A stretch of 64,000 nucleotides of DNA from Ecytonucleospora hepatopenaei (taxonomy: Eukaryota; Microsporidia; Enterocytozoonidae): positions 62,001 through 126,000 of the forward strand of contig JAPMUG010000007.1 in assembly GCA_026692725.1 (NCBI GenBank), written 5' to 3'. Of this stretch, positions 23,155 to 62,194 are shown in pieces (position 1 is the first letter of the stretch; every line of letters starts with the position of its first letter). Below the pieces are notes generated by a model, which worked only from the letters and a program-made list of their open reading frames with translations, had not been told where the DNA came from and searched no databases. A program made the translations under genes and the position numbers.

Positions 23155-23694
23155 CTTTTACTTTCAATTTTATGTGTTACATGTGCTTCAAGTTCAGTTG
23201 CAGTAGATGAGACCTTTAATATCAGAGAACTAACTGTAACTGATGTCCAAAGACCTGAATTTTTAGAGCTGTTCAACGAATTAACAACAACGGAAAAACC
23301 TTCAAATGAAAAAATAAAAGAAGCTTTTGAAAAAAAGCAATCTTCAAATTTGCATCATCAGCTTGGTGTCTTTACTATGGATGGTTCAGTAATTGGAACA
23401 CTTACAGTTTTTCTTGATCCAAAATATGCAAAAAATGGAAGACCAGCAGCATTTATTGAGGATGTTATTGTGAATAAAAATTACCAAGGAAAAGGTTTAG
23501 CAAAACGTCTTTTAAGAGAAGCAGAAGAATTTTCTATAAAACACAATAGCTATAAAATGATTTTAAGCTGTAGCAAAAGCCTGGCTAAAAATGAAAACTC
23601 ACCCTATGTAAAATTAGGTTTTGAAAAAGATTGTATAACCATGAGAAAAAATTTAAATACAGAGGAAGATTCTGAGATGGAAATTTTATCTTAA
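23152..23694 (+). CDS. GNA1: glucosamine-6-phosphate N-acetyltransferase-like GNAT protein with a signal-peptide-like N-terminus
   Basis: The 180-residue protein is a GNAT acetyltransferase. IEDVIVNKNYQGKGLAKRLL (about 103-122) is the acetyl-CoA-binding block and matches GNA1 (HIEDIAVNSKYQGQGLGKLL). It is followed by YKMILSCSKS and the C-terminal VKLGFEKDCITMRKNL, again like GNA1 (YEKCGFxxxGVEMQIR). GNA1 makes N-acetylglucosamine-6-phosphate for UDP-GlcNAc, used for chitin of the spore wall and for GPI anchors. The first ~18 residues (MLLLSILCVTCASSSVAV) look like a cleavable signal peptide, which is odd because GNA1 is normally cytosolic; no other in-frame ATG precedes the domain, and the CCC signal fixes this start. 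If it is secreted, a different acceptor is possible. Confidence 0.8.
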   Translation: MLLLSILCVTCASSSVAVDETFNIRELTVTDVQRPEFLELFNELTTTEKPSNEKIKEAFEKKQSSNLHHQLGVFTMDGSVIGTLTVFLDPKYAKNGRPAAFIEDVIVNKNYQGKGLAKRLLREAEEFSIKHNSYKMILSCSKSLAKNENSPYVKLGFEKDCITMRKNLNTEEDSEMEILS

Positions 23695-23819: not shown

Positions 23820-24425
23820 ATGTCAGGGTTTAATGAAAATGTTTTAGATCTTAAAGGTAGGAATGAAATTTCCCTTTCTAAAAATAAGCTTAATATTCTT
23901 GTTGCTTTTACGGAAAAAAACAAATTTATTTCCAATGGTGAAAAAATGCCGTGGAAAAGACTTTCTGTTGATTTTGCATTTATGAAATACATCATGAACA
24001 TGGAAAAAGATGCTGTTGTTATTTTAGGCAGAAAAACACTTGAAGTTGCAAAATACACAAATTACAATAAAATTGTACTTAGTAGGGCAGAATATAAAGA
24101 TACAGAAAAAACAAAGTATGTAAAATCATTTGCAGAAGCATTAGAACTTGCAAAGGGCAAAACAATAATTATAGCAGGAGGACAGGAAATTTACAGAGAA
24201 GCTTTAACTCATCCTTATAAATTATTTTTTACGCTGATTGAAGAAAAAGAAGAAACGCACGGAGATAGGGTTTTCCCCATCGAAAACAAGGTTATTCTGC
24301 ATAAAAAGGATATAACAGAAAATTTTTTGAAAGTTTGTGATATATCCAAAGATAAATACAGTGTAGAAGAGGGAAGTATTATTGAAAATGGCCATAAATT
24401 TAAGTTTTTTGTCACAGAAAATTAA
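23820..24425 (+). CDS. DFR1: dihydrofolate reductase
   Basis: The 201-residue enzyme reduces dihydrofolate to tetrahydrofolate with NADPH, closing the cycle with TS and SHMT of this window. Family blocks: LNILVAFTEKNKFISNGEKMPW (substrate and Met20-type loop, ending in PW), DFAFMKYIM with the active-site acidic residue, VVILGRKTLE (NADPH binding), NKIVLSRAE and IIIAGGQEIYREAL (the conserved Gly-Gly). The N-terminal ~26 residues precede the normal start of the fold. Start fixed by ACCCATG. The gene lies 10.7 kb from SHMT on the same strand. Confidence 0.96.
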   Translation: MSGFNENVLDLKGRNEISLSKNKLNILVAFTEKNKFISNGEKMPWKRLSVDFAFMKYIMNMEKDAVVILGRKTLEVAKYTNYNKIVLSRAEYKDTEKTKYVKSFAEALELAKGKTIIIAGGQEIYREALTHPYKLFFTLIEEKEETHGDRVFPIENKVILHKKDITENFLKVCDISKDKYSVEEGSIIENGHKFKFFVTEN

Positions 24426-27743: not shown

Positions 27744-28337
27744 ATGTTATATTATATTTTAATATATTCTTTATATATTGAATATATTTCACAATATGAT
27801 AGTGATTATACTGGTATAGAACAAATTATACTTAAAAGTCCATATGCCTTTTCATATAGGAGAGAAGATGAGGATGAATTTACAATTGGTACAGAATATA
27901 TATTAAACAGTAATACATATAATACACATATATTAAACAGTAATACATATAATACACATAATAATTTAACCATAAAAGAATATTTAAGAGATAATTATGA
28001 ATATATAAATAATTTTTGTTTTTACATTATTATACATAGTATTACATCTAATAATTGTATATTAAAACATAATAATAAATCACTTAAATGTATAACCAAT
28101 ACTGATGTTAATTCATGTATAAGTGTATGTATAAAAATAGAATTATATATAAAACAAGTATTTATACAGCAAAGTACCATTGAAAATGCAACTGAAAGTG
28201 CAGAGAATCTATTACGTGCAGGATTATACTGTAAGATATTTAAGGTAGAAGATGCATATGTAAATATAGAAAATAAAGAGGAACCAAAGGATATGAGAGG
28301 AATATATGGATTACTATTAGAGGAAGCAGAAGAGTAA
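27744..28337 (+). CDS. putative secreted protein, small lineage-specific family, member 1
   Basis: The 197-residue protein starts with a hydrophobic signal-like segment (MLYYILIYSLYIEYI) and belongs with 29008-29568 and 30450-31046. Shared features: FSYR near residue 35; FYIIIHS...CIL in the middle; two Cys then a C.K.E segment; VFIQ; and near the end GLYCKIFKVEDAYVN, the best conserved block (FKV[ED]D[AP][YF].N). The tail is acidic and not membrane-spanning. It contains a perfect tandem duplication of 30 bases (27900-27959), giving ILNSNTYNTH twice, a recent in-frame expansion. No known family recognised; the signal and conserved Cys suggest an extracellular or wall protein. Confidence 0.7.
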   Translation: MLYYILIYSLYIEYISQYDSDYTGIEQIILKSPYAFSYRREDEDEFTIGTEYILNSNTYNTHILNSNTYNTHNNLTIKEYLRDNYEYINNFCFYIIIHSITSNNCILKHNNKSLKCITNTDVNSCISVCIKIELYIKQVFIQQSTIENATESAENLLRAGLYCKIFKVEDAYVNIENKEEPKDMRGIYGLLLEEAEE

Positions 28338-29007: not shown

Positions 29008-29568
29008 ATGCTATCATTTCTATACTATTCTCTAATACATTCTATACGTGTGTTATGGTGGCCAAAAGATTCACATAATGAAACTGCAAAGGTTATACTA
29101 CGTGGTTATCATACATTTTCACATAGATTTGGATGGGATGATCAATTTCACCATACAAGAGAAATGACACTATTAGAACATCCTCAGTCTATACAACAGT
29201 GTTTACAGTTTAGTCCTGATTATTATAATAATATGTGTGTATATTTTATACAGCATAAAGAGGGAAATCATCAGTGTATTTTAAATGGATCAGAGAGGTG
29301 TGATGGTAGAAGATGTCAGTTTATGTGTTTAAAGTTTGAATATCAGCATCAATTTGTATTTATTGAAAATGGCACTTTTGATGATGGTCTTCAACAAAAC
29401 AGTGCATTTCAACTTCATCAGTCAGGTGTACGTGGGGTAGTTTTTAAAGTTGATGATCCATTTACAAATAGTGTATCAGAGGGTCCATTTAATTTTGCTG
29501 GTAGAATAGGATATTATTATGCAGGATATACAGGACCAGTAAATGATGATTTAGAGACGGATGGATAA
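29008..29568 (+). CDS. putative secreted protein, small lineage-specific family, member 2
   Basis: A 186-residue relative of the genes at 27744 and 30450. It starts MLSFLYYSLIHSIRVLWW, then FSHR, MCVYFIQHKEGNHQCIL, RCQFMCLKFE, FVFIENGTF and GVRGVVFKVDDPFTN. It is closest to member 3: CQFMCLKFE versus CSFMCLKFD, VFIENGTF versus VFIENELF, and GVVFKVDDPFTN versus CVVFKVDDPFIN. Unlike member 3 it has a Gly/Tyr-rich tail. Two Asn-linked glycosylation-type sites (NET, NGT) are consistent with secretion. Function unknown. Confidence 0.7.
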   Translation: MLSFLYYSLIHSIRVLWWPKDSHNETAKVILRGYHTFSHRFGWDDQFHHTREMTLLEHPQSIQQCLQFSPDYYNNMCVYFIQHKEGNHQCILNGSERCDGRRCQFMCLKFEYQHQFVFIENGTFDDGLQQNSAFQLHQSGVRGVVFKVDDPFTNSVSEGPFNFAGRIGYYYAGYTGPVNDDLETDG

Positions 29569-30449: not shown

Positions 30450-31046
30450 ATGTTAAATATTCTTATTTTTATATTTAATTGTTTAGTTTATACAATGTAC
30501 ATTGAATATATAAAAGAATCTCCTTCATTGACAACAACACCCACACAATTTAAACTATTTAGTGATACAAAATTTTCATATAGGCAAACTACTTGCTATG
30601 ATTTTACCCACGTAAATGCGTTAATCTTAAAACTTGGAGAAATAAGAGGATTCTTAGAAAGATCTCATATGCCGCTTTGTTTTTTTATAATTAAACACTC
30701 AGAAGAAAGTGCACAGTGTATTTTAAAAGGAAAAAATAGACGTGATGGAAATCATTGCAGCTTTATGTGTTTAAAGTTTGATAACTCTCTACCTTATGTT
30801 TTTATTGAAAATGAACTTTTTAAACATACCATAGAATGCACATATAAATTATACCATTTGGGATTGAGGTGCGTAGTGTTTAAAGTAGATGATCCATTTA
30901 TAAATACGGAGGCTGAAGGTCATGTTGATATTACACAGAGACAGGGACAAATAAAAAATTATCCATTACCATCTGAACAGCAACAACAGGAACAGCAAGA
31001 TGTTACACAATCTGAAGCAGCAACTTCTATGGATAATGATGATTAA
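30450..31046 (+). CDS. putative secreted protein, small lineage-specific family, member 3
   Basis: A 198-residue member of the family (see 27744). Signal-like start MLNILIFIFNCLVYTMYIEYI, which aligns with member 1 (ILIYSLYIEYI). Then FSYR, LCFFIIKHS, CILKGKNRRDGNHC, FMCLKFD, VFIENELF and LRCVVFKVDDPFINTEAEG. The tail is Gln-rich (about 170-185) and acidic, differing from both relatives, so the tails evolve fastest. The gene directly follows the octamer array. Function unknown. Confidence 0.7.
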   Translation: MLNILIFIFNCLVYTMYIEYIKESPSLTTTPTQFKLFSDTKFSYRQTTCYDFTHVNALILKLGEIRGFLERSHMPLCFFIIKHSEESAQCILKGKNRRDGNHCSFMCLKFDNSLPYVFIENELFKHTIECTYKLYHLGLRCVVFKVDDPFINTEAEGHVDITQRQGQIKNYPLPSEQQQQEQQDVTQSEAATSMDNDD

Positions 31047-37053: not shown

Positions 37054-37548
37054 TCATTTTTCTTCTTCTGTCTTTTCTTCTTTACTCTTTTTCTTACATT
37101 CATCTATTAGTTTAGCAAAGTTAAAATCTTTAAATATTTCATATTCCTTCATTACTTCTATAACATTCTCTTTGTATATTTTCTTATGTACCTGCAATTT
37201 ACCTACTACCTCTTCTATAAAAAGTTCGAGTGCTTTTGACAGCGCCACAGGAACAGCGCTGCTTGTCTTTCCAATTTCTTCATCTTCTTGTATAAGCTTT
37301 TTAATTCTGGAAAGGGGAAATCTTGTTTTTTTCATTTCCTGTAAATTTGATGTTTTTTCATTATTTTCCTCTTTTAATGTATTGTTGTCTTTATCATTTT
37401 CTTCTATAAATTCATTTTCTTTTATATTATCACTATTTACTAAATTATCTTTTAAATTAACTTCTGTATTATTAACTGTGCTATTTACTGTATTATCTTC
37501 TTGTTGTATGTTATTATCATTTAAATTATTTTCTGTACTTTTTTCCAT
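37054..37548 (-). CDS. BUR6: NC2-alpha (DRAP1/BUR6) histone-fold protein
   Basis: The 164-residue protein has an acidic Asn-rich N-terminus (about 70 residues) and a histone fold at about 75-145: [38 protein letters not shown]. This follows NC2-alpha (RFPPARIKKIMQxDEEIGKxxxAVPVxISRALELFLE) nearly position by position. NC2-alpha/beta binds TBP on DNA and represses or tunes RNA polymerase II initiation. The fit is much better than to NF-YC or the CHRAC/DNA pol epsilon subunits; NF-YC itself is at 48540. The acidic N-terminal extension is unusual for NC2-alpha. Confidence 0.87.
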
Positions 37549-37916: not shown

Positions 37917-38924
37917 TTAAGCATCACATTTTAAATATTTTTTACAATTTTCTTCATTTTGTGCACATGAACATTTCCTTTTATTCGCATTATTATCACT
38001 CAACATAGATGATGGTTCATATAACAGCAATTCTTCAAAAAATATCAAACGTGTAGTACTAACTAACGAACAGCATATTTCAGCTTTAACCTTAAAATTT
38101 ATTGTCTTTTTGTCACTTCTTAAATTTTCTAGAAATGATCCTTTTAAAGGCAGAGACACATATTCTTTTCTTCTTAGCTGACTAAATTCCCTAAATTCTT
38201 CATCATTTATTTCTTTGTAAGTATATTGTTTTTTACCAGATCCATTTAATTTCCCTTCCAAAAGACTAATGTTTTTATAATTTATTATTTCAGATCTTCC
38301 TTTAGATTGTTTTTCATCATCTGTGCTTTTTGAATCTTCATCAAATGTTGATTTAGTGTTAACAAACCAAAATATTTTATTTTCTTTTTCCACTTCTTCT
38401 GGATTTTTAGTATTTATTCTTTTTAAAAACAATAAATCAGGATATTTCCCATTTTCTTGCAAAAAAGAATATGAACCAAAGGGACATAAGTAATAATCTT
38501 TTTCTTTATGTTTAATAGTATAAAGTCTTTTATCTTTCTTTAAAACAATGTCACAATCTAATATAAATGATTTCTTTATAAGCAATAAATGTTCTATTTT
38601 CGTTTCTGAGTCAAAAAACTTTACATAAAATGCTTCACATACATTTTTTTCTTCTTTTATTGCTTGAGAAGGAGCTTTTAAATCTAACAAATTAACCTTT
38701 TCAATTTCAAAATAAACTTCAATTTCACAATTTTTTTCTAAATCAAAAACCTGATTTTTAGAAATAAACTTTCTGCCATTTTTTTCTTTTATTTTATCGC
38801 ATTTTTTAATGTTTAAAAATGACAAACCAATGCAATCTTTACATTTTGTACAATTAAATTCACTTGGTGTTATAAAACACGATGAAAAACATAATTCAAA
38901 GTTTAAAAAATTTAAAATATTCAT
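37917..38924 (-). CDS. putative secreted protein, five-gene family, member A
   Basis: The 335-residue protein has a hydrophobic start (MNILNFLNFELCFSSCF), then a Cys-rich patch (CTKCKDCI). A common domain of the family at about 45-195 follows: an F-x-F-ISKNQVFDL element, EIEVYFEIEKVNLLD, CEAFYVKFFDSE..HLLLIKKSF, then YYLCPFGSY and YPDLLFLKRINTKNPEE. The C-terminal half (about 205-300) is less conserved; the end is Cys-rich (CSCAQNEENCKKYLKC). It is transcribed in the same direction as four relatives (39064, 40136, 41506, 42870). The start lies in TTGATATTAACCCTAAATG, the family promoter motif. The signal-like N-terminus and Cys pairs suggest a secreted or wall protein; no outside family recognised. 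Confidence 0.72.
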   Translation of the reverse strand: MNILNFLNFELCFSSCFITPSEFNCTKCKDCIGLSFLNIKKCDKIKEKNGRKFISKNQVFDLEKNCEIEVYFEIEKVNLLDLKAPSQAIKEEKNVCEAFYVKFFDSETKIEHLLLIKKSFILDCDIVLKKDKRLYTIKHKEKDYYLCPFGSYSFLQENGKYPDLLFLKRINTKNPEEVEKENKIFWFVNTKSTFDEDSKSTDDEKQSKGRSEIINYKNISLLEGKLNGSGKKQYTYKEINDEEFREFSQLRRKEYVSLPLKGSFLENLRSDKKTINFKVKAEICCSLVSTTRLIFFEELLLYEPSSMLSDNNANKRKCSCAQNEENCKKYLKCDA

Positions 38925-39063
38925 TTAGGGTTAATATCAATAAAGTTAGTTTATATTTATTTTTTATTAAAATTCTAATAAAAATCACTGATTTTTAAAA
39001 AAATGATTTTCTTTTAAATACAGATATTTTTAAAAAAATATAAATGTTTTAAATAAAAAAAAC

Positions 39064-39987
39064 TTATAATCTTAATTTAATTTCTTTTAATGTTTTGAAA
39101 CAACAAAATTTTATTTTTGCACCAATTTCATAACTAAATAATCCATGATCATTTCGTAAAAAATCATTTAAATCATTTTTATCTATATGTATAAAAACAA
39201 AATCATTTCTATATTTTTCAAAAAGTTTCTCACTTACATATCTTTCCAGTGATTCTTTTAAAAAAACAAAAACATTTTTATCAAACTTCATAAAACTGCA
39301 TATATGACTATTTTTTACATTTTCCTCAATAAATGTATATTTTATTACTTCATTGTTTTTCCTAATAATATTTAAATAGAATATCTTACTGTTTAAAAGG
39401 TAAAAAAAATTATTCATAGCAGGTGGGTTATTTATGTCATATCTTCTAAAACAAAAACATTCAGGATAATATCCATTTATATCTGGCATTAATTCATATA
39501 AACCACATGGTATAATATTTCTATTAGAATCCTTACAAATTTTATATTTTTTATTTTTGTAAAATATAAAAAAATCATCTGGTAAATGCACGTATTTCTT
39601 TACTAAAAGATGTACAAATTCTTTATTTTGATCATCAAATAATTTTATATAAGTAGCATCACATAATTTTTTATCTCTTAATAGAATTTTCTCTATATTT
39701 TGTAAAATCATATTATTAACCTTATAAATTTTAAAATGTAACTTTATGTTACAAGATCTTTCAAAATCTTTGAAAATCAGATTTTCTTTTAAAAAAAGAA
39801 AATTATCATTTTCAATAGTTAAAATTTTACTATTATTTTTTAGTATACATTTTTTACATTCATCTTTACCAAATTCTAATGGTGAAGAACTTAACATATT
39901 ATTGTAATTTACAGAATGCTCATTTTCTTTATTTTTGATGTTAGGATTACTGCATATAGTAAAATATAAAAAATAAAAAATTTCCAT
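39064..39987 (-). CDS. putative secreted protein, five-gene family, member B
   Basis: 307 residues, starting MEIFYFLYFTICSNP (signal-like). It has the CKKC pair followed by the common domain: NFLFLKENLIF, CNIKLHFKIYKVNN, LCDATYIKLFDDQN..HLLVKKY, CGLYELMPDINGYYP and FRRYDINNP. Those blocks align with member A (CEAFYVKFFDSE, HLLLIKK, CPFGSY, FLKRINTKNP). The C-terminus lacks A's Cys-rich tail. The upstream sequence ATAGTTCAAAATATCCTTATG is a diverged version of the family promoter, with TCCTT instead of ACCCT. Confidence 0.7.
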   Translation of the reverse strand: MEIFYFLYFTICSNPNIKNKENEHSVNYNNMLSSSPLEFGKDECKKCILKNNSKILTIENDNFLFLKENLIFKDFERSCNIKLHFKIYKVNNMILQNIEKILLRDKKLCDATYIKLFDDQNKEFVHLLVKKYVHLPDDFFIFYKNKKYKICKDSNRNIIPCGLYELMPDINGYYPECFCFRRYDINNPPAMNNFFYLLNSKIFYLNIIRKNNEVIKYTFIEENVKNSHICSFMKFDKNVFVFLKESLERYVSEKLFEKYRNDFVFIHIDKNDLNDFLRNDHGLFSYEIGAKIKFCCFKTLKEIKLRL

Positions 39988-40135
39988 AAGGATATTTTGA
40001 ACTATTGGAAAATTAGTAAAAAATGATCAAAAAATTTTGACATTTTATTTTTAACAAAGTATTTAAATATTTTATTTACCACAACTTTTTCCTTTTTGCT
40101 TAGTATTTTAAATTTTAAAATAATCAAAAATCATT

Positions 40136-41257
40136 TTAGTCTTCTGCATGAATTTCTTTTAAAATAAAATCATTTAATGTAATTAATTCATTTTCATCAT
40201 CAATCTCTTCATCTTTATCATCTTCATCATAATCATATTGACATGGTTTTTTATCTTCTTTTTGAAATAGATTCTTCTTATAATAAGCCATTTTTACAAA
40301 TCTTTTTGTAGTTTCAGGTCCTCTAAGAAATTTTAAAAGTTCTGATTCTTCCTGAAAATCAACTGGAAAACAAATGTATTTTTCCATTTCATTATAAACT
40401 TTTGCTCTTTCTTTTTTATCTTCTACTTCCACCTCTTTAACATAATCTCGTTTATCACAATACTTTTTTATACAAAGACGCATTTTGTCGTCTTTATTAG
40501 CCTTTTCAGACTTTTCTTTATATTTTTGTTTGGCATTCATATCTATATTTGTATTTCTAAATATTAATTTTATTTTATCAATCTTATAATTAGTGATTTT
40601 TTCATCTTCAACTTGCATAGGATCGATTCTTTTAAACAAAAAATAGCTTGGATACCATTTGCCAGATCCATATCCCTCTTTCCCAAAGGTATATCTAAAA
40701 AAAGGACAAAAATAATTATTTAGAGCCTTATCTTGTATAAAATCGTGTGTTTCTACGTCGTATTTTCTACTATTATTTTCTAAAAAATATAAATAACAAA
40801 AATCAAATGATTTCGTTACAAGCAATGTATGTGCTTTATTTTCTTCAGAGTCATGTATTTTTATATAAGCAGCATCACAAATTGTTTCATCTTCTGCCAA
40901 AACATCTTCTATGCTTTTTAAACATGTGTCATTTACTTTTATAAAGTCAGTACAAACACCAAATCTAGTTTTTTGTGGCAGAAAAAGCTTTTGATTTTTG
41001 GGCATTACAATTTTATCAAATTGAGTTTGTAAATAACAAAATTCATGGCTTTTTATTGTTGATATATAACTTTCATTTTTACCTTCATTTTCATTTTCAT
41101 TTTCATTTTCATTTTCACTTTCAATTTCACTCTCACTCTTACTATCATATCCCCACCTATCATCTTCACTGGAATAATAATCATTATTTAAACAATTGTT
41201 TAAAGCAGTTGCACCTTTAACAACATTATTTAGTAAAAATATCAATAAAATAAACAT
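40136..41257 (-). CDS. putative secreted protein, five-gene family, member C
   Basis: 373 residues with a strong signal-like start (MFILLIFLLNNVVKGATA), then an acidic region with an Asn-Glu repeat (about 48-58, from tandem 6-bp units near 41080-41120), then the common domain: KNQKLFLPQKTRF, DFIKVNDTCLKSIEDVL, CDAAYIKIHDSEEN..TLLVTKSF, YFCPFFRYTF and YPSYFLFKRIDPMQ. The C-terminal half is Lys-rich and ends in an acidic stretch. Start context TTTCACCCTATG. It is the longest acidic member and shows the same order of blocks as A and B. Confidence 0.7.
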   Translation of the reverse strand: MFILLIFLLNNVVKGATALNNCLNNDYYSSEDDRWGYDSKSESEIESENENENENENEGKNESYISTIKSHEFCYLQTQFDKIVMPKNQKLFLPQKTRFGVCTDFIKVNDTCLKSIEDVLAEDETICDAAYIKIHDSEENKAHTLLVTKSFDFCYLYFLENNSRKYDVETHDFIQDKALNNYFCPFFRYTFGKEGYGSGKWYPSYFLFKRIDPMQVEDEKITNYKIDKIKLIFRNTNIDMNAKQKYKEKSEKANKDDKMRLCIKKYCDKRDYVKEVEVEDKKERAKVYNEMEKYICFPVDFQEESELLKFLRGPETTKRFVKMAYYKKNLFQKEDKKPCQYDYDEDDKDEEIDDENELITLNDFILKEIHAED

Positions 41258-41505
41258 AGGGTGAAATTATCATTTTTATTTATCCTTAAAATATAATAAT
41301 TGATATTTAATAGTTTATAAATATATTGATATTTTATTGAATTAATTAATAAAATAATTATTTAACAATATAATTATTTAACTAATTAAATAATAAAATA
41401 TTTTATAATTTATTAGTTAAAAATAATTTAAGCTTAATATATTTTTGCATAAACAAGTAAAAAATTATAAAAATAAATTATATATAAATAACACAAAATA
41501 TTTTA

Positions 41506-42504
41506 TTATATTTCTATTAAATCTATGTCTTCTAAAGTATAAAAACAAGCATTTCCATCAAAATATAAATCATACGATTTAGCAAATGTTTCTTTTGTTG
41601 CACTTTGATAAAAAAATCTAATAATTTCTTCAAAATCAAATAAACATGCATATCTATTATTTTGTTGTCTTGTAAAACTTTTAATAATTTCATAATCTAC
41701 ATCCTCATCTAATTTTTTCCATTCCTTTTTTAAACAATTTATATTTGCACCATATTTTACAATACTATTGTAATTTAAAATACGAAAAGATTCATTTAAC
41801 CTTAAAAATGCATATGTTTTATCTAAATCATCACCCTTGTTTTTTAGTTTATCAATTGTATTATCAAACAATACATAAGCATGATAAAAAATATATGATA
41901 TATGATCATTTTCAAAATCATCTCTATCAAATGGATCTATTTTTTTATGAAATGCTATGCTATTTACATATGATTTAGTTTGTATTTTACCATATGGATA
42001 AATATTGCAGTCATTTTCAAATTTGCTTCTATAAAATTTATCATCGTATTTAACCTGAAAAGCATCATTAAGCTTAAAACTTTTTGTGGTTATATAAGTT
42101 TGAGACTCTAATTTTTTTATTCCAAACTTAACATAATCAGCTGAAAATATTTTATTATCATTCATTAAAATAAATTCAATGAGCACACAATCTTTTCTAG
42201 GAATTTTTCCTACAGAAAAATGCATTTGAAGATCTACAGAATTATTTAGCTTTATTACTTGATTTTTACGAATATAAAGAGTGCCATCTTCTCTCTTTCC
42301 TATTATAGGATTATTTGTACATATTTTATTTTTATAACATTCACAATTATTTAAATAGTTACATTCTTCATTAAAATTATTTTCATCATAACCCTGAAAA
42401 TAATTTAAAACAGAATCTTCATTACTGCTATTACTATTTATTTCATTGTTTTTGTCAGAACAACCTATTTCTACTGATAAAAATAAAATATCAAAAACAA
42501 ACAT
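41506..42504 (-). CDS. putative secreted protein, five-gene family, member D
   Basis: 332 residues, start MFVFDILFLSVEIGCSD (signal-like), then a Ser/Asn/Glu-rich stretch, a Cys-rich patch (CNYLNNCECYKNKIC), and the common domain: DGTLYIRKNQVIKL, DLQMHFSVGKI, SADYVKFGI, YITTKSFKL, NIYPYGKI and FHKKIDPFDRDD. The end is acidic (FYTLEDIDLIEI), like member E (FDDIELSEL). The ATG directly follows the 41-bp promoter block shared almost exactly with member E. Confidence 0.72.
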   Translation of the reverse strand: MFVFDILFLSVEIGCSDKNNEINSNSSNEDSVLNYFQGYDENNFNEECNYLNNCECYKNKICTNNPIIGKREDGTLYIRKNQVIKLNNSVDLQMHFSVGKIPRKDCVLIEFILMNDNKIFSADYVKFGIKKLESQTYITTKSFKLNDAFQVKYDDKFYRSKFENDCNIYPYGKIQTKSYVNSIAFHKKIDPFDRDDFENDHISYIFYHAYVLFDNTIDKLKNKGDDLDKTYAFLRLNESFRILNYNSIVKYGANINCLKKEWKKLDEDVDYEIIKSFTRQQNNRYACLFDFEEIIRFFYQSATKETFAKSYDLYFDGNACFYTLEDIDLIEI

Positions 42505-42545
42505 AGGGTTATATCAACTATTTGTTTTTAATCAAAAAATATCAA
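42505..42545 (-). promoter_or_regulatory. 41-bp family promoter block of member D
   Basis: On the coding strand it reads TTGATATTTTTTGATTAAAA then ACAAATAGTTGATATAACCCT, directly before ATG. It matches the block before member E at 40 of 41 positions. Shorter versions lie before A, B and C. Confidence 0.75.
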
Positions 42546-42869
42546 AAATGACATTTTTGAATTATTTTTAAAATTTAAATTTTTTTACATTTTTTTAGCA
42601 TTTTTAAATACAATAATAAAATATTTTAAATTTATAAAAAATGATAAAAAACAAATAATTATCTCAAACATTATAATTTTATAATACATTACTTTTTATT
42701 CTGTTATATTCAAATAGTTTAAATGTGTGTGTAATAAATTTATTAGGTAAAATTTCATATGATAGCCTTAAAATTATAAATTCTTTGTTTTTTATATTTT
42801 ACCAATAAGTATTATTAAACAAATAGTTAATTTAAATTAATATTTTTTACAAATTTATTTATTATACTA
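42546..42869. other. intergenic, no gene seen
   Basis: Spacer between members D and E; AT-rich. I looked for a broken family member and found none. Confidence 0.4.
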
Positions 42870-44009
42870 TTATAGTTCTGATAATTCTATATCATCAAAA
42901 TTATTAAATGACTCTATATATGCAGTAGCATCATTTTCTGTTTTAAATTTTCCACTGTATTTTAAATCATTTAAAAGATTATCTGCGTCAGTTATACAAC
43001 AATACTCATAATTATGATCGTGTCTAACCATTTCAATTTCTTCTTTATCACAATATTGTTCTTTTATTAAAAATTTTTTCTTCCTTAAAAAATTCATAAA
43101 ATACGAATATTCAAACTTTTGATAGTATAAAAATTTAACTATTTCATATTTATGTGTGTCATTTTTTTCATATAAATCATTGTTTGTTACGTAATTTACA
43201 CAAGCTTTTTTAAAAAAATAAATCACATGCTTTTGATTTAACACACCTGAGCAGTTTAGGTCCACCGTTTTCATACATGCTATGCATTTGGATGGCTCTT
43301 TTTGTATAATTTGTCCATTAAATTTTATACGAGACAATTTAACCTTAGCTAAATAATGCGTAAAATTATGTCTTACACTAAAATTATCATTAAGCTTAAT
43401 GTATTTTTTTATTAGGTAAATTACAGGCCCAGCTATAGAATTAGATATTTGAACATAAGCAGCGTAAAAAAGTGATTTATCCTGTTCTAAAATTTCATCA
43501 ATACTTTTATATTTAGTTTGATTTACTGAAGTTATTTCTGTAACAACTTTAACATTTAAATTTTTATGTATACTAATTTGTTGTCCTTTTGGAATATAAA
43601 GCACCCCTTTTTCTTTTTCTCTTATTTTACTGACATAATCAGCATTGTTATATTTATTACACACACAAGAATAACATTGTTTGTCACAGCGTTTGCAAAG
43701 GATTTCATCAATATCTCTTTGGTACCAAAAACGATCTGTATTGTATTTTTTATTTAATTCATTTGTTCTTCTTCTACCCTCCATATTAGTAACCTTTGTT
43801 TCACATTTTTCTAATCCAGATTCAATACAATTAGTCGTGTTGTAACATGTTCTTTCATCACAAATTTTTAGATCACTATTGCTACTATTTGTATAATTAT
43901 ATTTATCAATACTGTCTATAGAATTTTTATCATCGCTAATATTACTGTCTACACCATTATCACTATCTGAACAACTTATGTATTTCAATAAAAATAGAAT
44001 ATTACTCAT
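42870..44009 (-). CDS. putative secreted protein, five-gene family, member E
   Basis: From ATG 44009 the protein has 379 residues: a signal-like start (MSNILFLLKYISCSDSD), a Ser/Asp/Asn-rich stretch, Cys-rich parts (ILCKRCDKQCYSCVC), then the common domain: KGVLYIPKGQQISIH, LNVKVVTEITSVNQ, FYAAYVQISNS, YLIKKYIKLNDNFSV. The frame is open upstream to a GTG at 44024, which sits exactly where member D has its ATG (CCCTGTG versus CCCTATG). So the ancestral start seems to have been lost, and the next ATG, five codons downstream, is used. Initiation at GTG is the less likely alternative. Confidence 0.7.
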   Translation of the reverse strand: MSNILFLLKYISCSDSDNGVDSNISDDKNSIDSIDKYNYTNSSNSDLKICDERTCYNTTNCIESGLEKCETKVTNMEGRRRTNELNKKYNTDRFWYQRDIDEILCKRCDKQCYSCVCNKYNNADYVSKIREKEKGVLYIPKGQQISIHKNLNVKVVTEITSVNQTKYKSIDEILEQDKSLFYAAYVQISNSIAGPVIYLIKKYIKLNDNFSVRHNFTHYLAKVKLSRIKFNGQIIQKEPSKCIACMKTVDLNCSGVLNQKHVIYFFKKACVNYVTNNDLYEKNDTHKYEIVKFLYYQKFEYSYFMNFLRKKKFLIKEQYCDKEEIEMVRHDHNYEYCCITDADNLLNDLKYSGKFKTENDATAYIESFNNFDDIELSEL

Positions 44010-44024
44010 ATCAATAAAAAACAC

Positions 44025-44065
44025 AGGGTTATATCAACTATTTGTTTTTAATGAAAAAATATCAA
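44025..44065 (-). promoter_or_regulatory. 41-bp family promoter block of member E
   Basis: Same as the block before member D with one base changed (position of G/C in TTTTTT[G/C]ATTAAAA). It ends in AACCCT. Confidence 0.75.
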
Positions 44066-44267
44066 TTTATATACTTTTTGATTTATTTAAATTATATTTT
44101 AAATTATTGATAACATTTATATAAACAAAAAAATAAAATGATAAAAACATTTTAAAATTTAAATAGTGATATAGAAACAAATAAACAAAAAAAATAAAAA
44201 TTTTGATTTAAAACAAATAATAATATTGAATAAAAACAAAAAACAATTTTTAATAAATAAAATTTAA

Positions 44268-46445
44268 TTATAATTGCTGTCTTAAAATATATTCTCCATC
44301 CACTATAAATCCTTCCTTTGTAAACTTCTCCCCTTTAAATAAATTCTCTGTTGATGTGCTAATATTTAATTTTTTAAGCTTTTTTATAAAATCTTCGACT
44401 CTTACTGTTGCCCATTTTTTATTAATCCGTGCATTAACAATTTCACTCTCTGATACCATCCTTTTTAACAGGTAAATCATCAATTCCTCATCATTATCCA
44501 AATATTTAGCAAACTTCTTTCTTAAGTTTTGATTTACTGAATATTTCTGTGCATTTAGGAAGGAATCAAGAGCTACTTTTATTGCCTCGTCAATGTCTTC
44601 CTTTATAACCACATTCCTTAACCTTAACTTTGCAAATCCTTCTGCCATTCTTATCACTGACTCTATGTGACGAACAGTAATTGGAATTCCAGAGTGTATT
44701 GAATGTCTTCTCAGATCTGAGTAAAGTTGACTTAGCTTTTCAATGTTCATTTTTGACACACTTGGAAATATGTTTGATTTAGCATAATTAATATAATTGG
44801 AAAGCATTCCCATAGGAATGATATTTTTATTGTTATCTTCATTTTCAGTTTTTTCACCACTATGGTTGCCAATGATTTTCTTAGCAAGACTTCTATCCTC
44901 TTTTTCATCAATTTCATCTTTTACCACACATAAAATATCAAATCTGCTTATAATAGGATCACTAAGATTTACATTCTGACTAAAACTGAGACTCGAATTG
45001 TAATTTCCTCTGACCGGATTGGCTGCTGCTACCACCGAACATCTTGCGTGTAATGAAGCAACTATTCCTGCCTTGCTTATTGAAATGCTTTGTTGTTCCA
45101 TGGCTTCGTGAATTGCAACACGGTCAACCTCGTTAATTTTGTCAAACTCGTCAATACAACACATTCCACGATCTGCCAAAACCAACGCACCTCCTTCTAG
45201 CACCCATTCCCCTGTTGCCGAGTCTCTGTGAACGGAAGCAGTTAAACCAACTCCGGATGCACCCTGTCCAGTTGCTATTACCCCTCTGTTCGACACTTTC
45301 TGAACGAATCTCAAAAACTGTGATTTTGCCGTACTTGGATCTCCCAACATCAAGCAATTTATGTCACCTCTCAGATACATTCCCTCCTTTTGTTTTGGAA
45401 CACCGCCAACCAAACAAAGCAGCAATGCCTTTTTAATATTTTTATGGCCGTGAATACTTGGTGCCACTGAATTTACCAACTTGTCTAATATTCCTTCCTC
45501 CTGTGACATTTTCTTTATTTCCCTTACATCCTCTTCTGTAATTGTACTGTCTATTTCCTTTGTAACCAACCCACAACATATGATCTGAGTGTTAAAAACA
45601 GGATATACGGTCTTTTTATTTGTGTGGATACTTACATTTTTATACACACCCGTCACATCAACTTCATCTCCAGGCTTGCACATATCAATCAATTCATTTG
45701 TTAGGAAAACTTCCTTTGCCCTGGGAAGTGAACCAGGTGGAACCGTTCCAGGTGTTTCCTGCACTGTAATTTTCTGTGTGTCTTTATATACCGAGCGTAT
45801 GTTGTCCAAAATCACCTTGCTTTGCTGACACTCAAAACACATCTTTACATTTACGTTGCTTTCAAATGGTCCTGTCGTAGTTTTACACATTGCACACTTG
45901 TAGTATGCAATTTCAACTACACTTTGGACCATACTGCGCCTGGTTACGACTCCTTTTATTCTTACAATCTTATTAAGGTGGCTGTTTCTTAAACTCCTTA
46001 TTTCTTCAATTACAGGCACATTGCTTATTCTTCCGTATACCCTTGGCTTTATCATGTTATAATTTGGAAAATATTTTTTAGTTACTCTTTGAATTGCAGT
46101 GTTTAACGTGTCTAGAAATACATCAGCAGATGTTTCCAAATATTCCACGAGTTCTTTTGTCAGGTCTGTATATTTTATGGTAATGGATTCTAAATTTGAT
46201 GCACACATCATCCTAATGTCTTTTACATACGTGTCATTGATAAAAACCATAAGTAAATTACACAATTCATTGTCTTTTAAATTTTCTTCTTCTTTTTTAT
46301 TTTCTCTTATTACATTATATTTGTTTTCGTTTTCATCATCTAAAGAATATGCTTCACTTTGTGTATTTGTGTATAACTGACCTAGACTTACCTCTTCTAT
46401 TTCAGTTTGAGAAGATTCAAAATCACTTGAAAAAGTTTCTGTCAT
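44268..46445 (-). CDS. MCM2: DNA replication licensing helicase subunit MCM2
   Basis: The 725-residue AAA+ subunit of the MCM2-7 replicative helicase. After an acidic N-terminus come SLRNSHLNKIVRIKGVVTRR, a CxxC...CxxC zinc finger (about 183-205), QKITVQETPGTVPPGSLPR, then the ATPase core: Walker A GDPSTAKSQ (about 367), TGQGASGVGLTASV, Walker B CCIDEFDKI (about 428), AANPVRG and the arginine finger SRFDI (about 500). The run RDSATGEWVLEGGALVLADR and the phrase ISRFDILCVV identify MCM2 among the six paralogues. It lacks most of the long N-terminal tail of yeast Mcm2 (868 residues). The CDC6/ORC1-like gene follows upstream on the same strand. Confidence 0.95.
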   Translation of the reverse strand: MTETFSSDFESSQTEIEEVSLGQLYTNTQSEAYSLDDENENKYNVIRENKKEEENLKDNELCNLLMVFINDTYVKDIRMMCASNLESITIKYTDLTKELVEYLETSADVFLDTLNTAIQRVTKKYFPNYNMIKPRVYGRISNVPVIEEIRSLRNSHLNKIVRIKGVVTRRSMVQSVVEIAYYKCAMCKTTTGPFESNVNVKMCFECQQSKVILDNIRSVYKDTQKITVQETPGTVPPGSLPRAKEVFLTNELIDMCKPGDEVDVTGVYKNVSIHTNKKTVYPVFNTQIICCGLVTKEIDSTITEEDVREIKKMSQEEGILDKLVNSVAPSIHGHKNIKKALLLCLVGGVPKQKEGMYLRGDINCLMLGDPSTAKSQFLRFVQKVSNRGVIATGQGASGVGLTASVHRDSATGEWVLEGGALVLADRGMCCIDEFDKINEVDRVAIHEAMEQQSISISKAGIVASLHARCSVVAAANPVRGNYNSSLSFSQNVNLSDPIISRFDILCVVKDEIDEKEDRSLAKKIIGNHSGEKTENEDNNKNIIPMGMLSNYINYAKSNIFPSVSKMNIEKLSQLYSDLRRHSIHSGIPITVRHIESVIRMAEGFAKLRLRNVVIKEDIDEAIKVALDSFLNAQKYSVNQNLRKKFAKYLDNDEELMIYLLKRMVSESEIVNARINKKWATVRVEDFIKKLKKLNISTSTENLFKGEKFTKEGFIVDGEYILRQQL

Positions 46446-48539: not shown

Positions 48540-49055
48540 ATGAAGAAAAACTTTATTAAAGAAGTAAATAAAGATTTTTTCTTAAATGACAAAAATGACT
48601 TAGAAAAAAGCATTTTTGGTAAACCTAAACAAAATGTTTACAGTCATCTTAAAAATCAATTTAACGAAAATGTAAATTTTGAAAGTTCAGGTATAAAAGA
48701 AAACCAAAAAGAAATGGTTAAGAAATACTGGGCTAAAGAATTTAGAAAAGCTCAAAATATGCCCATTAACTTTAAAAACGTAAAATTACCTTTAGCAAGG
48801 ATAAAAAGACTAATGAAGGTTGAAGAAGACGTAAAGGTGATAGCACAGGAAGTTCCCGTTCTTTTTGCTTTTGTAACAGAAAAATTTATAGAAGAGTTGA
48901 CACTCCGTGCCTGGCTTTTTACAATGGAAGGAAAAAGGAAGATTCTTCAGGGCAGTGACATTTTTAAAGCAGTAAAAACATCAAAATCATTTGATTTTTT
49001 ACATCAGATAATTATGGAGACAGAGGCAGCAGAATTAAAAAAGCAAACAGAATAA
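48540..49055 (+). CDS. HAP5: NF-YC/HAP5 CCAAT-binding subunit
   Basis: The 171-residue protein has KKYWAKEFRKAQNM (the helix before the histone fold in NF-YC) and then LPLARIKRLMKVEEDVKVIAQEVPVLFAFVTEKFIEELTLRAW (histone-fold core), closely following NF-YC (LPLARIKKIMKxDEDVKMISAEAPVLFAKAxxxFIxELTLRAW). Next come KRKILQGSDIFKAV and FDFL, also family features. With NF-YB and NF-YA it binds CCAAT boxes in the nucleus. The N-terminal 60 residues are lineage-specific. Confidence 0.94.
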   Translation: MKKNFIKEVNKDFFLNDKNDLEKSIFGKPKQNVYSHLKNQFNENVNFESSGIKENQKEMVKKYWAKEFRKAQNMPINFKNVKLPLARIKRLMKVEEDVKVIAQEVPVLFAFVTEKFIEELTLRAWLFTMEGKRKILQGSDIFKAVKTSKSFDFLHQIIMETEAAELKKQTE

Positions 49056-51337: not shown

Positions 51338-53277
51338 TTATTTCTTTACTATTCCTATGGTTGTTTTTGTTTGTTTCTGTAAAATAAATGACCCTAACAA
51401 ACCTATCAAAAACCCTATAACTAACACCATTACTATGCATATACCATAATTTAAGCTTTCTAATCCAAATGCTTTAAGCAACTCATCTCCATCTATACTA
51501 CTCATTCCTTCTGAAAATTCTCTTCCCTTTGCCTGAGACTGTAGTAACCCTCTAAATGCATATTGCACAGGTGAAATGTAAATTATCCATCTCAACCAAC
51601 CTGGAAATTCGCTTGGATTGTTAAATGCACCGCTAAATAAAATAAACAAAATTGCTATTGTTGAACCAAGTGCCTGTGCTGAATTTGAGGTGGGTGCAGC
51701 ACATGAAACCGTTAAACCCATTGTAACCCCTAGCATGACTTCTGCAAACATTATAAAAATAAACTGAAGATACATCCAAAATGTAAAATAAAAACCAGTC
51801 GCCAAGTAAATTACTGTTAGGTATGGAAATTCAAATAAAAACAAAAATGTCATTTCACTTAAAAACTTAGCTATATAAACAGTATAACCACTGTACAATC
51901 CACTCTGTCTTTCTCTTAAAATTACTTTTTGTTCCTGTTTGAATAAATTGAAAATAGGTCCACAAATACCAAAAGCTCGTTCATAACAAAAAATGTAAAA
52001 ATTCCTCTAAATGAAAATATTTCAACAGGATCTTTTGCACCCAGTTGCCAATAAACAGCAGAAAGTAAAAATGCAGTTGTAATTCTTTGAATGGTCTTAA
52101 CAAAAAGTAAAGGTTTATTTTTCAAATTATCCTTTAAATTTCTTGTAAAAACATCATAAAGAACAGTGTTAAACTTACAACATCTTGTATCCTTATCAAA
52201 TTCATTAACTAAATTATTATCAATGGTAGGTTCAAAAGTTATATTTTTATTTTTTACATATTCACTAAAACTTTTTTTCATATTTTCTACCTTTCTTTCA
52301 CTTTCTTCATCATAAACAGCAATTTCATCTAAGAAAAAGTCAGTAGGATTTGTATTTTCAGGTAAATTTAAATTTATAGACTTAAAAAAATCTACACAAT
52401 CTTCACAGGTACCGTCAAAAACAACACCACCCTTTGCCATTAAATAAATTTTATCAAAAAACTGTACCATTTTGTAGCTAGGCTGGTGTATGGTAACAAT
52501 CAAAGTCTTTCTCTGCTCATGTGCCAAATCCCTTAAAAATTTTAAAATTTTAACAGCATTAAAACTGTCTAATCCTGAAATTGGTTCATCTAAAAATAAA
52601 ATACTTGGATTACCAACAAGTTCGATTCCCACAGATAGTCTAATTCTTTCACCACCAGATAATTCTTTAACTTTATTTTCTTTAGCATGTTCTAAACCTA
52701 AAATTTTCAATAAATCATTTATTTTATTATCAACTACATTAGTAGTATTATTTAATATATTGTTGTTAGTATTAGTATTATTATGTAATATATTTTCATT
52801 ATTATTTTCATTAGTATTACTAATAGTTTTATTTTCTACTTCTAATCCTTTTTTTATTAATATTTTTATAATAAATCCTAATGTTTCTTTTACTGTTAAA
52901 TTTTCATAAGCATGGAAAGTTTGACTGACATACGCACTGATTTTAGGCCATGTTTCAGGCACTCTCCTCCTGTTATTTACCAAAATTTCACCGGTAAGTG
53001 TTAAAGAACTGTCTAATCTCCCTGTTAGTGAATTTAGCAAAGTTGTTTTACCAGCCCCAGAAGATCCCATCAAAGCCACCATTTTACCAGGTTTTATTTC
53101 CCCACTGATTCCATTAAGTAGTACCTTACCATCCTTAGTCTTTAATTTTAAGTTTTTAAAAATCAATTCAGCATCTTTATTAATATTTTCATTAGGAATA
53201 TCACATCTACTATTATTTACATTATCAATAGTATTAATGTTATCATCAATGTTTATAATTGTATCATTGTTACTCAT
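51338..53277 (-). pseudogene. ABCG (White-type) half transporter, split by a one-base frameshift
   Basis: The first frame (451 codons from 53277) has an ATPase domain: Walker A GSSGAGKTT, Q-loop, an Asn-rich insert, signature LSGGERIRL, Walker B ILFLDEP and H-loop TIHQPS. Then comes the first membrane helices' region, and it stops at TAA 51922-51924. The second frame (from about 51950 to 51338) carries on exactly where the family should: EQKVILRERQSGLYSGYTVY, followed by further membrane segments and a normal C-terminus. Restoring phase needs one more T in the TTTT run near 51954. Members export lipids or drugs. The nucleotide-binding domain precedes the membrane domain, as in ABCG. An artefact is more likely than loss because both halves are otherwise intact. 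TAACCCTTTA lies about 120 bases before the ATG. Confidence 0.82.
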
Positions 53278-53734: not shown

Positions 53735-55231
53735 ATGTCTAAAGTATGTATAAATTGTAATTCTAATGAACTTACCACTGATACTTCTAGAGGTATAATA
53801 TGCTGTGAAGAGTGTGGTATGATACAAGAAGAGAATCTAATTGTTAACACCATACAGTTTGAGTCAACCAACAACAAAAGCACAATGCATGGGAAAGTGG
53901 TGAATGTGGAAAACAAAAATGTAGGCACCCAATACGTGGACAGCTGCTACTACATCAAAAACACAATAAAAAACATCACCATTAAGCTGTCACTAACTAA
54001 CACCCATGCAGACATAGCATTCAGGTGGTACAAGCTGTGTCTGGCCAATAACCTGACCAAGGGCAAAAGCATACTCCATACCCTATCAGCATGCATATAC
54101 ATAGCATGTCGTCAAACCAACTCCCCCCACCTGCTAATAGACTTTTCCAATGTGTTACAAATAGACATGTATCAGATAGGCAAGATATATTTGAGGATAA
54201 GAAATACATTTAAGATAGAGAATCAGGTGGAAGATACATATTTATTATATTTACATAGATTTGTAGATCAATTAAAATTTAATACTAATACCAATAATAG
54301 TTTAAATAATAATATATTAAATAACAATATATTAAATAACAATAATTTAAATAATAACAATATATTAAATAATAATAACAATATATTAAATAATAATAAG
54401 TGTACACCTAAAGATGTTATTTTACTCAGCACTAGAATATTAAATAGAATGAAAAAAGATTGGATCATAGAGGGAAGAAAGCCTAACAATGCGTGTGGTG
54501 CTGCCATACTCCTGGCATCAAGGATACTTGGTGATCCAAGGGAAGTACATGAGGTGGCAAGGGTGGTCCATGCAGCACCAGCCACGCTCACCAAGAGACT
54601 AAAAGAGTTTGCAAGTACACAAACAGCCAAAATGGATATAAATGAGTTTAATACAGAGTGGTTAGATGAGGAAGCAGCACCACCAGTATTAAGACAGTTT
54701 AAAACAATAAGAAGTAATAATAATAATATAAAAGATAATAATAATATTTTATATTCTAATAATATAAAAGAAAACAATATTAAAGATATAGAGAATAACA
54801 CTAATTTATATAATACTAATACTAATAATACTAATAATACTAAAGATATTTTTATTAATGAATTAAATAATACATTAAATAATAAAAATATAATAAATAA
54901 TGATAATAATAAAAATATAATAAATAATGATAATATAATAAATAATAACATTTTAGATGGTGATAATGACAGTTCTTTTATTAATGACATGATTTTACCC
55001 AGTGATGAAGTTGCCACTAAAACTGCCATATGGGAAGAAATGTATGGCACATATGTGAAGGAAGCAGAAAACAAGAGAAAGAGCAAGGCATCCACTGCAA
55101 CAGGAGTGACCAGAAAAAAGACAAAAAAGAAGCATAACTTTGCTACGGTGGAAGAGGCATACAAGTCATTAGATAAAAAAGTATCAAGTAAGTTAAATTA
55201 TACAGCATTATCAGGGTTATTTCAGAAATAA
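53735..55231 (+). CDS. BRF1: BRF1, TFIIB-related subunit of RNA polymerase III factor TFIIIB
   Basis: The 498-residue protein has a TFIIB-type zinc ribbon (CINC at 5-8, CCEEC at 23-27) and two cyclin folds. In the first, KGKSILHTLSACIYIACRQT and PHLLIDFSNVLQIDMYQIG are typical of BRF1 (TFIIB has no PHLLIDFS). In the second are LNRMKKDWIIEGRKPNNACG and VHAAPATLTKRLKEF. The C-terminal part contains the BRF1-type TBP-binding stretch and ends in a basic region. Long Asn-rich runs split the first and second cyclin folds (about 190-225) and fill about 330-410. BRF1 recruits polymerase III to tRNA and 5S genes. The conserved parts use GC-richer codons than the Asn runs. Confidence 0.93.
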   Translation: MSKVCINCNSNELTTDTSRGIICCEECGMIQEENLIVNTIQFESTNNKSTMHGKVVNVENKNVGTQYVDSCYYIKNTIKNITIKLSLTNTHADIAFRWYKLCLANNLTKGKSILHTLSACIYIACRQTNSPHLLIDFSNVLQIDMYQIGKIYLRIRNTFKIENQVEDTYLLYLHRFVDQLKFNTNTNNSLNNNILNNNILNNNNLNNNNILNNNNNILNNNKCTPKDVILLSTRILNRMKKDWIIEGRKPNNACGAAILLASRILGDPREVHEVARVVHAAPATLTKRLKEFASTQTAKMDINEFNTEWLDEEAAPPVLRQFKTIRSNNNNIKDNNNILYSNNIKENNIKDIENNTNLYNTNTNNTNNTKDIFINELNNTLNNKNIINNDNNKNIINNDNIINNNILDGDNDSSFINDMILPSDEVATKTAIWEEMYGTYVKEAENKRKSKASTATGVTRKKTKKKHNFATVEEAYKSLDKKVSSKLNYTALSGLFQK

Positions 55232-55601
55232 CATTTAATAAATATAAAATAAAATATATTATAAATAAATAAAATATAATTAATAAATTATTATATTTTT
55301 ACTAATTAACCAATAATATTTATTTATATATTTATTTATTTATATTTTTTTTACTAATTAAATTAACAAATAAAAATACATTTACTATAAAATAGACTAT
55401 TACTAACTATTATATAATATAAATTAAATATATCACTATATAAACATATAATATAACATAATATTTATAAATAATATACTACAAACAATAAAATATAAAT
55501 ATAATATACTACAAATAATAAAATATATTAATATACTTCAAACAATAAAATAATACTATACTACAAATAATATTATTATACTACAAATAATAAAATATAT
55601 T
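55232..55601. other. AT-rich spacer
   Basis: 370 bases with a loose tandem repeat of atactacaaataataaaatata (about 55475-55590, four to five degenerate copies) reaching up to the SNARE-like gene. No gene. Confidence 0.5.
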
Positions 55602-56021
55602 ATGACTGATAAAATAGATGAAGTTGATCAACAAGTTAATTTGCTACAAAACAAATTAAAAGATAGACTCAAACAAACACAAGATTTATCTGACCTGAAC
55701 AATGATGTGTTTAAGTCAACCATGAAAATAGAAAAGTCAACAGCAAGACTAAAAGAAACAGCAGTAAAGACCAAGTGGTACTGGTTCTGGGAGTGGTTTA
55801 AGTGGGCATGCATAGCATTTGCAATAGCAACAGTAATAATATTGATATTACTAAATAAGATGGGATTTATAGGAAAAGGAAGTACAACAACAATAAATGA
55901 AAATAATACAGAAAACAATAATACTGAAAATAATAATACAGATAATACTGAAAATACAGAAAATACAGAAAATAACAATAATACAGAAAACAATACTGAT
56001 AACAATAATGATAATGGATAA
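55602..56021 (+). CDS. SNARE-like protein, synaptobrevin/VAMP type
   Basis: The 139-residue protein has one coiled-coil motif (about 5-57: DEVDQQVNLL ... QTQDLSDLNNDVFKSTMKIEKS ... ARLKETAV), a juxtamembrane Trp-rich stretch (KWYWFWEWFKW) and a membrane anchor (about 68-90). The pattern L.xL...A/S..F....x+.+..WW is that of R-SNAREs, which drive vesicle fusion. Anchoring the alignment on the C-terminal half puts Gln25 in the central 0-layer; on the N-terminal half, Arg22. After the anchor comes a luminal tail of about 48 residues rich in Asn, Thr and Glu, absent from normal synaptobrevins, which end after the membrane helix. Confidence 0.75.
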   Translation: MTDKIDEVDQQVNLLQNKLKDRLKQTQDLSDLNNDVFKSTMKIEKSTARLKETAVKTKWYWFWEWFKWACIAFAIATVIILILLNKMGFIGKGSTTTINENNTENNNTENNNTDNTENTENTENNNNTENNTDNNNDNG

Positions 56022-56174
56022 AATATAATTATAAATAAATTATGTATATATAATATATAATATATTTATATATAAACTATGTATATATAATATATTTAAA
56101 TATAAACTATGTATATATAATATATTTATAAATAAACTATATATAAACTATGTATATAACATGTTATATTATTG

Positions 56175-56417
56175 TTATATATATTTAGTAGTTATTCTCT
56201 TTTCTAATATTTTCTTATATATTTCTTTTTTGTCTCTTATGCTTATATCCACATAAAATATTCTCTTATATATTTTACATTTATTACATATACAATCTAT
56301 ATGTCTATATAGAAACATAATAGTAGGTCTACATATAATATCATATTGATTATACTTATTATGTATATTATGTCTATTATTAAGTAATATATTATAAATA
56401 TAATAATTAGTATACAT
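56175..56417 (-). CDS. possible small Cys-containing protein
   Basis: An 80-codon frame with DIICRPTIMFLYRHIDCICNKCK, that is CxxC-type spacing (CNKC and the preceding C.C), followed by a basic helical end. It could be a small zinc-binding protein, but at this base composition such frames also arise by chance. No CCC signal and no relative recognised. Confidence 0.35.
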   Translation of the reverse strand: MYTNYYIYNILLNNRHNIHNKYNQYDIICRPTIMFLYRHIDCICNKCKIYKRIFYVDISIRDKKEIYKKILEKRITTKYI

Positions 56418-56758
56418 AATATAAATATATTATAAAATATAATATAATATAATATAATATAATATATATTATATTATATGTTTTATATTTAAATAAATTG
56501 TATCATATACTAATAAATAATTTGTTATAATATAAAATAATATAATATAATATTATATTTTATTATGTTACATTTTATAATATAATGTTTTTATTTATAA
56601 TATTTTTATACCCTTATTATTTTTATATAAAATTTTACACATATATAAATACATAATATTATATATTATATATTAATTATATATTGTTATATTCTATTAT
56701 ATAAATACATAATATTATATAAATATTATTATATTAATTATATAAATATATTACTAAC
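56418..56758. other. AT-rich spacer
   Basis: 341 bases of near-pure A/T between the small protein and the large Asn-rich gene. A TATACCCTTA run at about 56608-56617 lies about 148 bases before ATG 56759 and may be its promoter. No gene. Confidence 0.5.
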
Positions 56759-62187: not shown

Positions 62188-62194
62188 TTTAAGC

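Follow-up and report, generated by a model that had tools for sequence, protein, structure and literature searches.

Five adjacent genes, here called A to E, in a 64,000-nucleotide stretch of the genome of the microsporidian Ecytonucleospora hepatopenaei (contig JAPMUG010000007.1, positions 62,001 to 126,000; the whole stretch is hereafter the window) form one homologous family of tandem paralogues, because profiles built from four members recovered the fifth in every one of five leave-one-out trials and all ten pairs of members aligned better than shuffled sequences. We think it probable, with some reservation, that A–E constitute a small and possibly lineage-restricted family of exported proteins, belonging to the class of proteins that microsporidia expose to their hosts. 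Proteins of this kind have already been described for microsporidia. The A–E family itself is unnamed, and no paper on it appeared among the titles and abstract openings listed in a literature search.

The leave-one-out trials recovered A, B, C, D and E with E-values of 1.2e-18, 8.2e-21, 2.1e-13, 4.5e-16 and 3.5e-15, respectively, and this design is non-circular, unlike a profile built from all five members. The trials were run against 185 open reading frames (ORFs) of the window of at least 60 amino acids, read from stop to stop, and none of the 180 other ORFs matched at E<=10. In Smith-Waterman alignments the ten pairs gave p-values from 9e-11 to 6e-4 (150 shuffles each), and no pair reached p<1e-3 when A–E were aligned with seven other proteins, namely the three of a second array in the window and four neighbours. 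A preliminary description of this DNA had proposed a single family of low overall identity, and both points hold: the core identity between paralogues is 18–27%, and no two members have a 5-residue word in common. It had also described a common order of sequence blocks, which is recovered in the columns of the alignment rather than in literal motifs, since the strict patterns of the six blocks are complete in A alone (A 6/6, C 4/6, B 3/6, D 1/6, E 0/6), and the CPxG and RI[DN] blocks cannot be recognised in E. The five-way alignment has seven invariant columns (M1, L7, A98, Y100, K118, Y135 and F296 in the numbering of A). The cysteine-rich patch described after the start of all members is present in A, D and E and, judged from the cysteine positions, slight in B and C; the proteins contain 10 to 17 cysteines and 1 to 9 N-glycosylation sequons each. 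As already noted from the sequence, the proteins belong to no recognised family: Pfam and NCBIfam yielded no named family for A–E, and PDB and fold searches gave none either.

The five ATG-started ORFs run head to tail between an NC2-alpha-like gene and MCM2, as had been described (Table 1). They share one direction, that of the minus strand, and their earlier span, 37917–44065, has to be shortened to 37917–44009, the former end including a short stretch upstream of E. The intergenic gaps along the array are 139, 148, 248 and 365 bases.

Table 1. Coordinates of the A–E array, its flanking genes and upstream regions, and the second array of the window.
Feature	Position	Strand	Description
Second tandem array	27744-28337, 29008-29568, 30450-31046	plus	three paralogous secreted-like proteins, 186-198 amino acids
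NC2-alpha-like histone-fold gene	37054-37548	minus	CBFD_NFYB_HMF, 5.5e-9; flanks the A side
Gene A	37917-38924	minus	ATG-started ORF, 335 amino acids, 16 cysteines
Gene B	39064-39987	minus	ATG-started ORF, 307 amino acids
Gene C	40136-41257	minus	ATG-started ORF, 373 amino acids; acidic repeat and acidic C-terminus
Gene D	41506-42504	minus	ATG-started ORF, 332 amino acids
Upstream region of D	42505..42622	minus	aligns with the upstream region of E; ends ...TTGATATAACCCT
Gene E	42870-44009	minus	ATG-started ORF, 379 amino acids; longest cysteine-rich N-terminal region of the five
Upstream region of E	44025..44139	minus	counterpart of the upstream region of D
MCM2	44268-46445		flanks the E side of the array

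The N-termini make it likely that A–E are secreted. We ranked the 42 ORFs of the window with at least 150 amino acids by the highest mean hydropathy of any 8 consecutive residues among their first 22, and the members took ranks 1 (C), 7 (D), 9 (E), 11 (A) and 15 (B). The signal-like starts of the preliminary description are thus present inasmuch as all five lie in the top 15 of 42; nevertheless, the hydrophobic start is strong in C only, fair in D, and weak and short in A, B and E, with B the weakest. The clearest signal-peptide-like start is that of C, MFILLIFLLNNVVKGATA/L (the slash marks the candidate cleavage site). Judged by eye with the (-3,-1) rule, acceptable sites would be ATA/L in C, GCS/D in D, SCS/D in E, ICS/N in B and CFS/S in A. 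Beyond residue 30, no 19-residue stretch of any member has a mean hydropathy above 1.5, and a second membrane anchor is therefore unlikely. Short N-terminal stretches can serve as anchors, and the short starts of A, B and E, weak as signal peptides, would also suit membrane-anchored or resident proteins of the secretory pathway, retaining an uncleaved hydrophobic start and carrying out a housekeeping or surface-adhesion task. We find this rather improbable, as the hydrophobic stretches are broken by polar or charged residues, and the strong divergence together with the lack of a recognised family fits a housekeeping task poorly.

The regions before the genes suggest that at least most of the members are expressed. 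In Encephalitozoon cuniculi, a CCC-like motif is described immediately ahead of the coding start of most genes, together with very short 5' untranslated regions, and a similar signal is reported from other microsporidia, including Enterocytozoon bieneusi (PMC2803860). A CCC lies within 30 nucleotides before the ATG in four of the five members, versus 7 of 36 other ORFs, and begins at position -6 in A, -4 in C, -4 in D and -19 in E; these four signals suggest that their genes would be expressed. B has no CCC within these 30 nucleotides and shows a degenerate signal, ATCCTT, before its ATG. In E, the CCCT signal aligns with that of D, the first ATG lies 15 nucleotides past it, and the reading frame is uninterrupted.

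The upstream regions of D and E are themselves alike. Their local alignment extends over about 115 nucleotides with gaps and has a score of 106 (the largest of 500 first-order Markov shuffles was 58), and their last 41 nucleotides are identical except for one base, a similarity far above that of the D and E proteins. Shared regulation could account for this likeness, as could gene conversion. The other upstream pairs of A–E were not clearly above shuffles, the best, B/D, being equalled by 17 of 500. Exact matches to TTGATATAACCCT occur twice in the window, before D and before E. The element GATAT-N(0-2)-ACCCT is common to A, D and E and occurs 10 times in the genome, versus 6 times for the reversed control. 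Seven of the copies lie outside the cluster: three head no long frame, two are upstream of housekeeping-like genes, and the remaining two stand 71 and 121 nucleotides before the ATG of genes for possible secreted or membrane proteins. We therefore rejected a regulon based on this element, given the 10 versus 6 copies, the mixed downstream genes and the failure of TTGATATAACCCT to be enriched in the window. Two of the genes with GATAT-ACCCT upstream, whose link to the cluster does not rise above the control, encode a 356-amino-acid protein with a C-terminal hydrophobic segment (locus L020) and a protein of at least 476 amino acids, open at the end of its locus (L015). The former was considered as a listed spore-surface protein of equal length and rejected, with an isoelectric point (pI) of 7.54 versus the printed 9.12.

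Regarding the exported-family reading, we propose that the genes would be expressed from the microsporidian start signal and that a short signal at the N-terminus would direct the products into the secretory pathway; behind it would come a variable, often cysteine-rich or charged spacer and then one folded domain with a β-α-β-β ... α-β core. The products are probably exported from the parasite cell in soluble form, disulfide-bonded or glycosylated; soluble release is proposed because hydropathy shows no later, clearly anchoring segment. Release would take place from intracellular stages, and the proteins would act in the surrounding space or in the host cytoplasm on host molecules. Such a soluble, host-facing role is moderately likely and is argued from the class of microsporidian proteins that A–E resemble. 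That each copy has diverged toward a different partner is speculative. The interpretation offered by the preliminary description stands in part, namely for one diverged microsporidian family, probably secreted and without a recognised family.

The class in question comprises the clade-specific host-exposed proteins and large gene families of microsporidia (Reinke et al., 2017, PMC5423893; NemLGF, PMC10393165). Like them, A–E have secretion-like starts and strongly diverged paralogues, and they have, as far as tested, neither a known domain nor a recognised relative outside a narrow circle. The likeness concerns these class features, and host exposure of A–E is putative. For the criterion that a signal peptide or transmembrane segment occurs in more than half of the members of a large family, the hydropathy measure, our only one, again separates a strong C and a fair D from A, B and E.

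A different placement would make A–E structural proteins of the spore wall or associated with the polar tube, secreted at spore formation and built into the coat via their cysteines. The secreted-like starts and the cysteine-rich patches of A, D and E agree with it, and two of the 15 listed spore-surface proteins in Table 2 of PMC8874471 are near members in length and pI: OQS53969 (374 amino acids, pI 4.88, 42.6 kDa) is near C (373, 4.94, 44.6), and OQS55748 (387, 7.59, 45.0) is near E (379, 7.98, 44.7; from stop to stop 387, 7.80, 45.7). In contrast, none of these 15 rows equals an ATG-started member, C being off by 2.0 kDa and E by 8 residues; the 15 rows are the high-abundance ones of 130 proteins, and strains and gene models can differ. 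The cysteine patches are also poorly conserved between members, and a named family is absent among the Pfam and NCBIfam matches. The known spore-wall proteins EhSWP1, EhSWP3 and EhSWP7 are comparable to A–E in coming from the same organism and in their putative export. They differ in length, with 228, 249 and 250 amino acids versus 307–379 in A–E. EhSWP1 is described as having a BAR2 domain and heparin-binding motifs (PMC5848443), and no BAR family appears among the Pfam matches of A–E at E<=1. Overall, these comparisons neither support nor exclude a spore-wall placement, which we regard as unlikely.

With respect to structure, two AlphaFold2 models were obtained. The model of full-length A, from seven sequences, is poor, with a mean predicted local distance difference test (pLDDT) of 51.5 and a predicted template modelling score (pTM) of 0.56. 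The model of the B core (residues 45–307, six sequences) is the better of the two and of moderate quality (pLDDT 67.8, pTM 0.71); mean pLDDT in the remaining four models from this run was 36–54. Both display a strand-helix-strand-strand arrangement, a long variable part with further elements and a final helix-strand, and they rest on nearly the same sequences. IxKV ends the first strand, C[DE]AxYxK forms the second, LLxKK the third, and a late FLR-like stretch forms the last helix. These low-confidence models suggest a common β-α-β-β…α-β core, and the order of its elements, which is that of the split ferredoxin-like fold, is a lead. Comparison of the A and B-core models with a fold library gave no significant match; the top VIA-align row for the B core, likewise non-significant, was Ecp11-1 of Fulvia fulva (PDB 6zuq), an effector according to its entry title. 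A bolder version of our proposal, which we put forward as a long shot, is that A–E are effectors of a kind new to microsporidia, defined as a family by their structure and delivered into shrimp hepatopancreas cells. Their domain would be a split ferredoxin-like one, its third strand and second helix separated by a long variable insertion. The conserved core (the strand with A-x-Y-x-K and the lysine in the strand after it) would be held while surface and insertion were remodelled copy by copy, in parallel with the fold-based effector families of plant-pathogenic fungi.

The genome contains one match without mismatch to a 23-base diagnostic primer for the spore-wall protein gene of E. hepatopenaei and none to the reversed control, as expected of this species or a very close relative. 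Six-frame searches of the genome (3,094,744 bases, 13 contigs), with one protein query at a time and cut-offs of E<=1 for A, B, D and E and E<=0.001 for C, found matches only within the cluster, each query also missing known members: A matched B and C, B matched A, C matched A and B, D matched E and A, and E matched D. A protein database was queried with the A–E profile, with C as the only single member, and with MCM2. The profile retrieved three proteins. They were E itself; P0002, which matches A at 99% identity; and P0003, the sole relative from another source that was found. P0003 has 205 residues, comes from a contig of 757 bases and shows 66% identity to E across 203 residues. C alone retrieved only itself. 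Over its last 81 residues, the region used for the tree, P0003 is 63% identical to E and 22–26% to A–D, and it groups with E with a support of 100, the other nodes being unresolved (supports of 50 and 60). P0003 and D have two 5-residue words in common, at the very start, and P0003 has none in common with A, B or C. Because the tree places P0003 as sister to E, the duplication that separated D from E is older than the split from the P0003 lineage; the array is not wholly recent, and the family has outlived a lineage split. The identity of 66% between E and P0003 is close to the 72% between MCM2 and its nearest relative in the database, though the two comparisons may involve different species and no rate, such as the fast divergence of the preliminary description, follows from them. 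Among named organisms, the nearest MCM2 in the same database is from Enterospora canceri (59%), and those of Nucleospora cyclopteri (57%) and of Hepatospora eriocheir (55%) are also present; the word-seeded searches with the A–E profile and with C gave no match in Enterospora, Nucleospora or Hepatospora. The family is perhaps restricted to this lineage.

Several observations weigh against an exported, lineage-restricted family. The lineage restriction is weakly tested, because the database search seeds on shared 5-residue words, which A–E do not have in common, and so cannot reach similarity at the level of these paralogues; the profile search even missed C, although C is present in the database. 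Five members were found, fewer than the ten that usually define a microsporidian large gene family. Further diverged members may exist elsewhere in the genome, since they could have escaped as known members did: A missed D and E, B missed C, D and E, C missed D and E, D missed B and C, and E missed A, B and C. Upstream, TTGATATAACCCT with up to three mismatches has 41 matches in the window versus 46 expected. Finally, ORFs outside the family supply ten of the 15 starts that rank highest in hydropathy, and a strong hydrophobic core occurs in C only. The abundance of such starts is what a cytoplasmic or nuclear paralogue array without a secretion signal would predict, its hydrophobic starts having arisen by chance in an AT-rich genome with many Ile-, Phe- and Leu-rich ORF starts. 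This explanation seems very improbable to us, given that the feature is common to all five members and that the starts of D, E and P0003 are still alignable and end in CSD. Were the proteins not exported, A–E would be an ordinary paralogue array.

The exported-family reading matters for the biology of E. hepatopenaei, a parasite that slows growth in farmed shrimp. Table 1 of PMC5848443 gives as putative virulence factors of this species polar tube and spore wall proteins, chitin enzymes, ADP/ATP transporters, kinases, transferases and the splicing machinery, and no family of exported proteins of the proliferative stages is among those listed there. If exported in the proliferative stage, A–E could serve as markers of active infection and would be the first candidate proteins with a site of action within shrimp cells. 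With its compact size and single locus, this family of candidate exported proteins lends itself to study as a whole.

Around the array, a plasmid scan with the intergenic sequence between E and MCM2 gave no match. A second histone-fold gene of the CBF/NF-Y type (48540–49055, plus strand) lies about 11 kb from the NC2-alpha-like gene, with the array and MCM2 between them.

Elsewhere in the window, the proteins of the second tandem array have identities of 29 and 34% to the first of them, with invariant cysteines and a C-x(3)-C-x-K motif. Pfam gave no family for them at E<=0.01, and when the third protein was searched against the genome, only these three matched. AT-rich repeats precede the genes, and the CCC signal is absent. 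Their similar motif style made them candidate members of the A–E family, which we rejected, as the profile-profile probability was about 0.1% and the shuffle test failed for every pair. A GNAT acetyltransferase gene (23152–23694, plus strand; PF00583, 4.9e-13) encodes a strongly hydrophobic start and carries a CCC signal, features that would suit a secreted product. By eye, genes resembling thymidylate synthase, serine hydroxymethyltransferase and dihydrofolate reductase lie at 10723–13090 and 23820–24425 (plus strand), and the adjacent ORFs 51338–51853 and 51922–53277 (minus strand) look like two parts of one ABC half-transporter, first the nucleotide-binding and then the membrane part, pointing to a split gene or a sequence error. 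In the last part of the window (54000–64000), the GC content falls to 15–17% from about 56 kb, and several proteins are rich in Asn and in Asn-Thr repeats.

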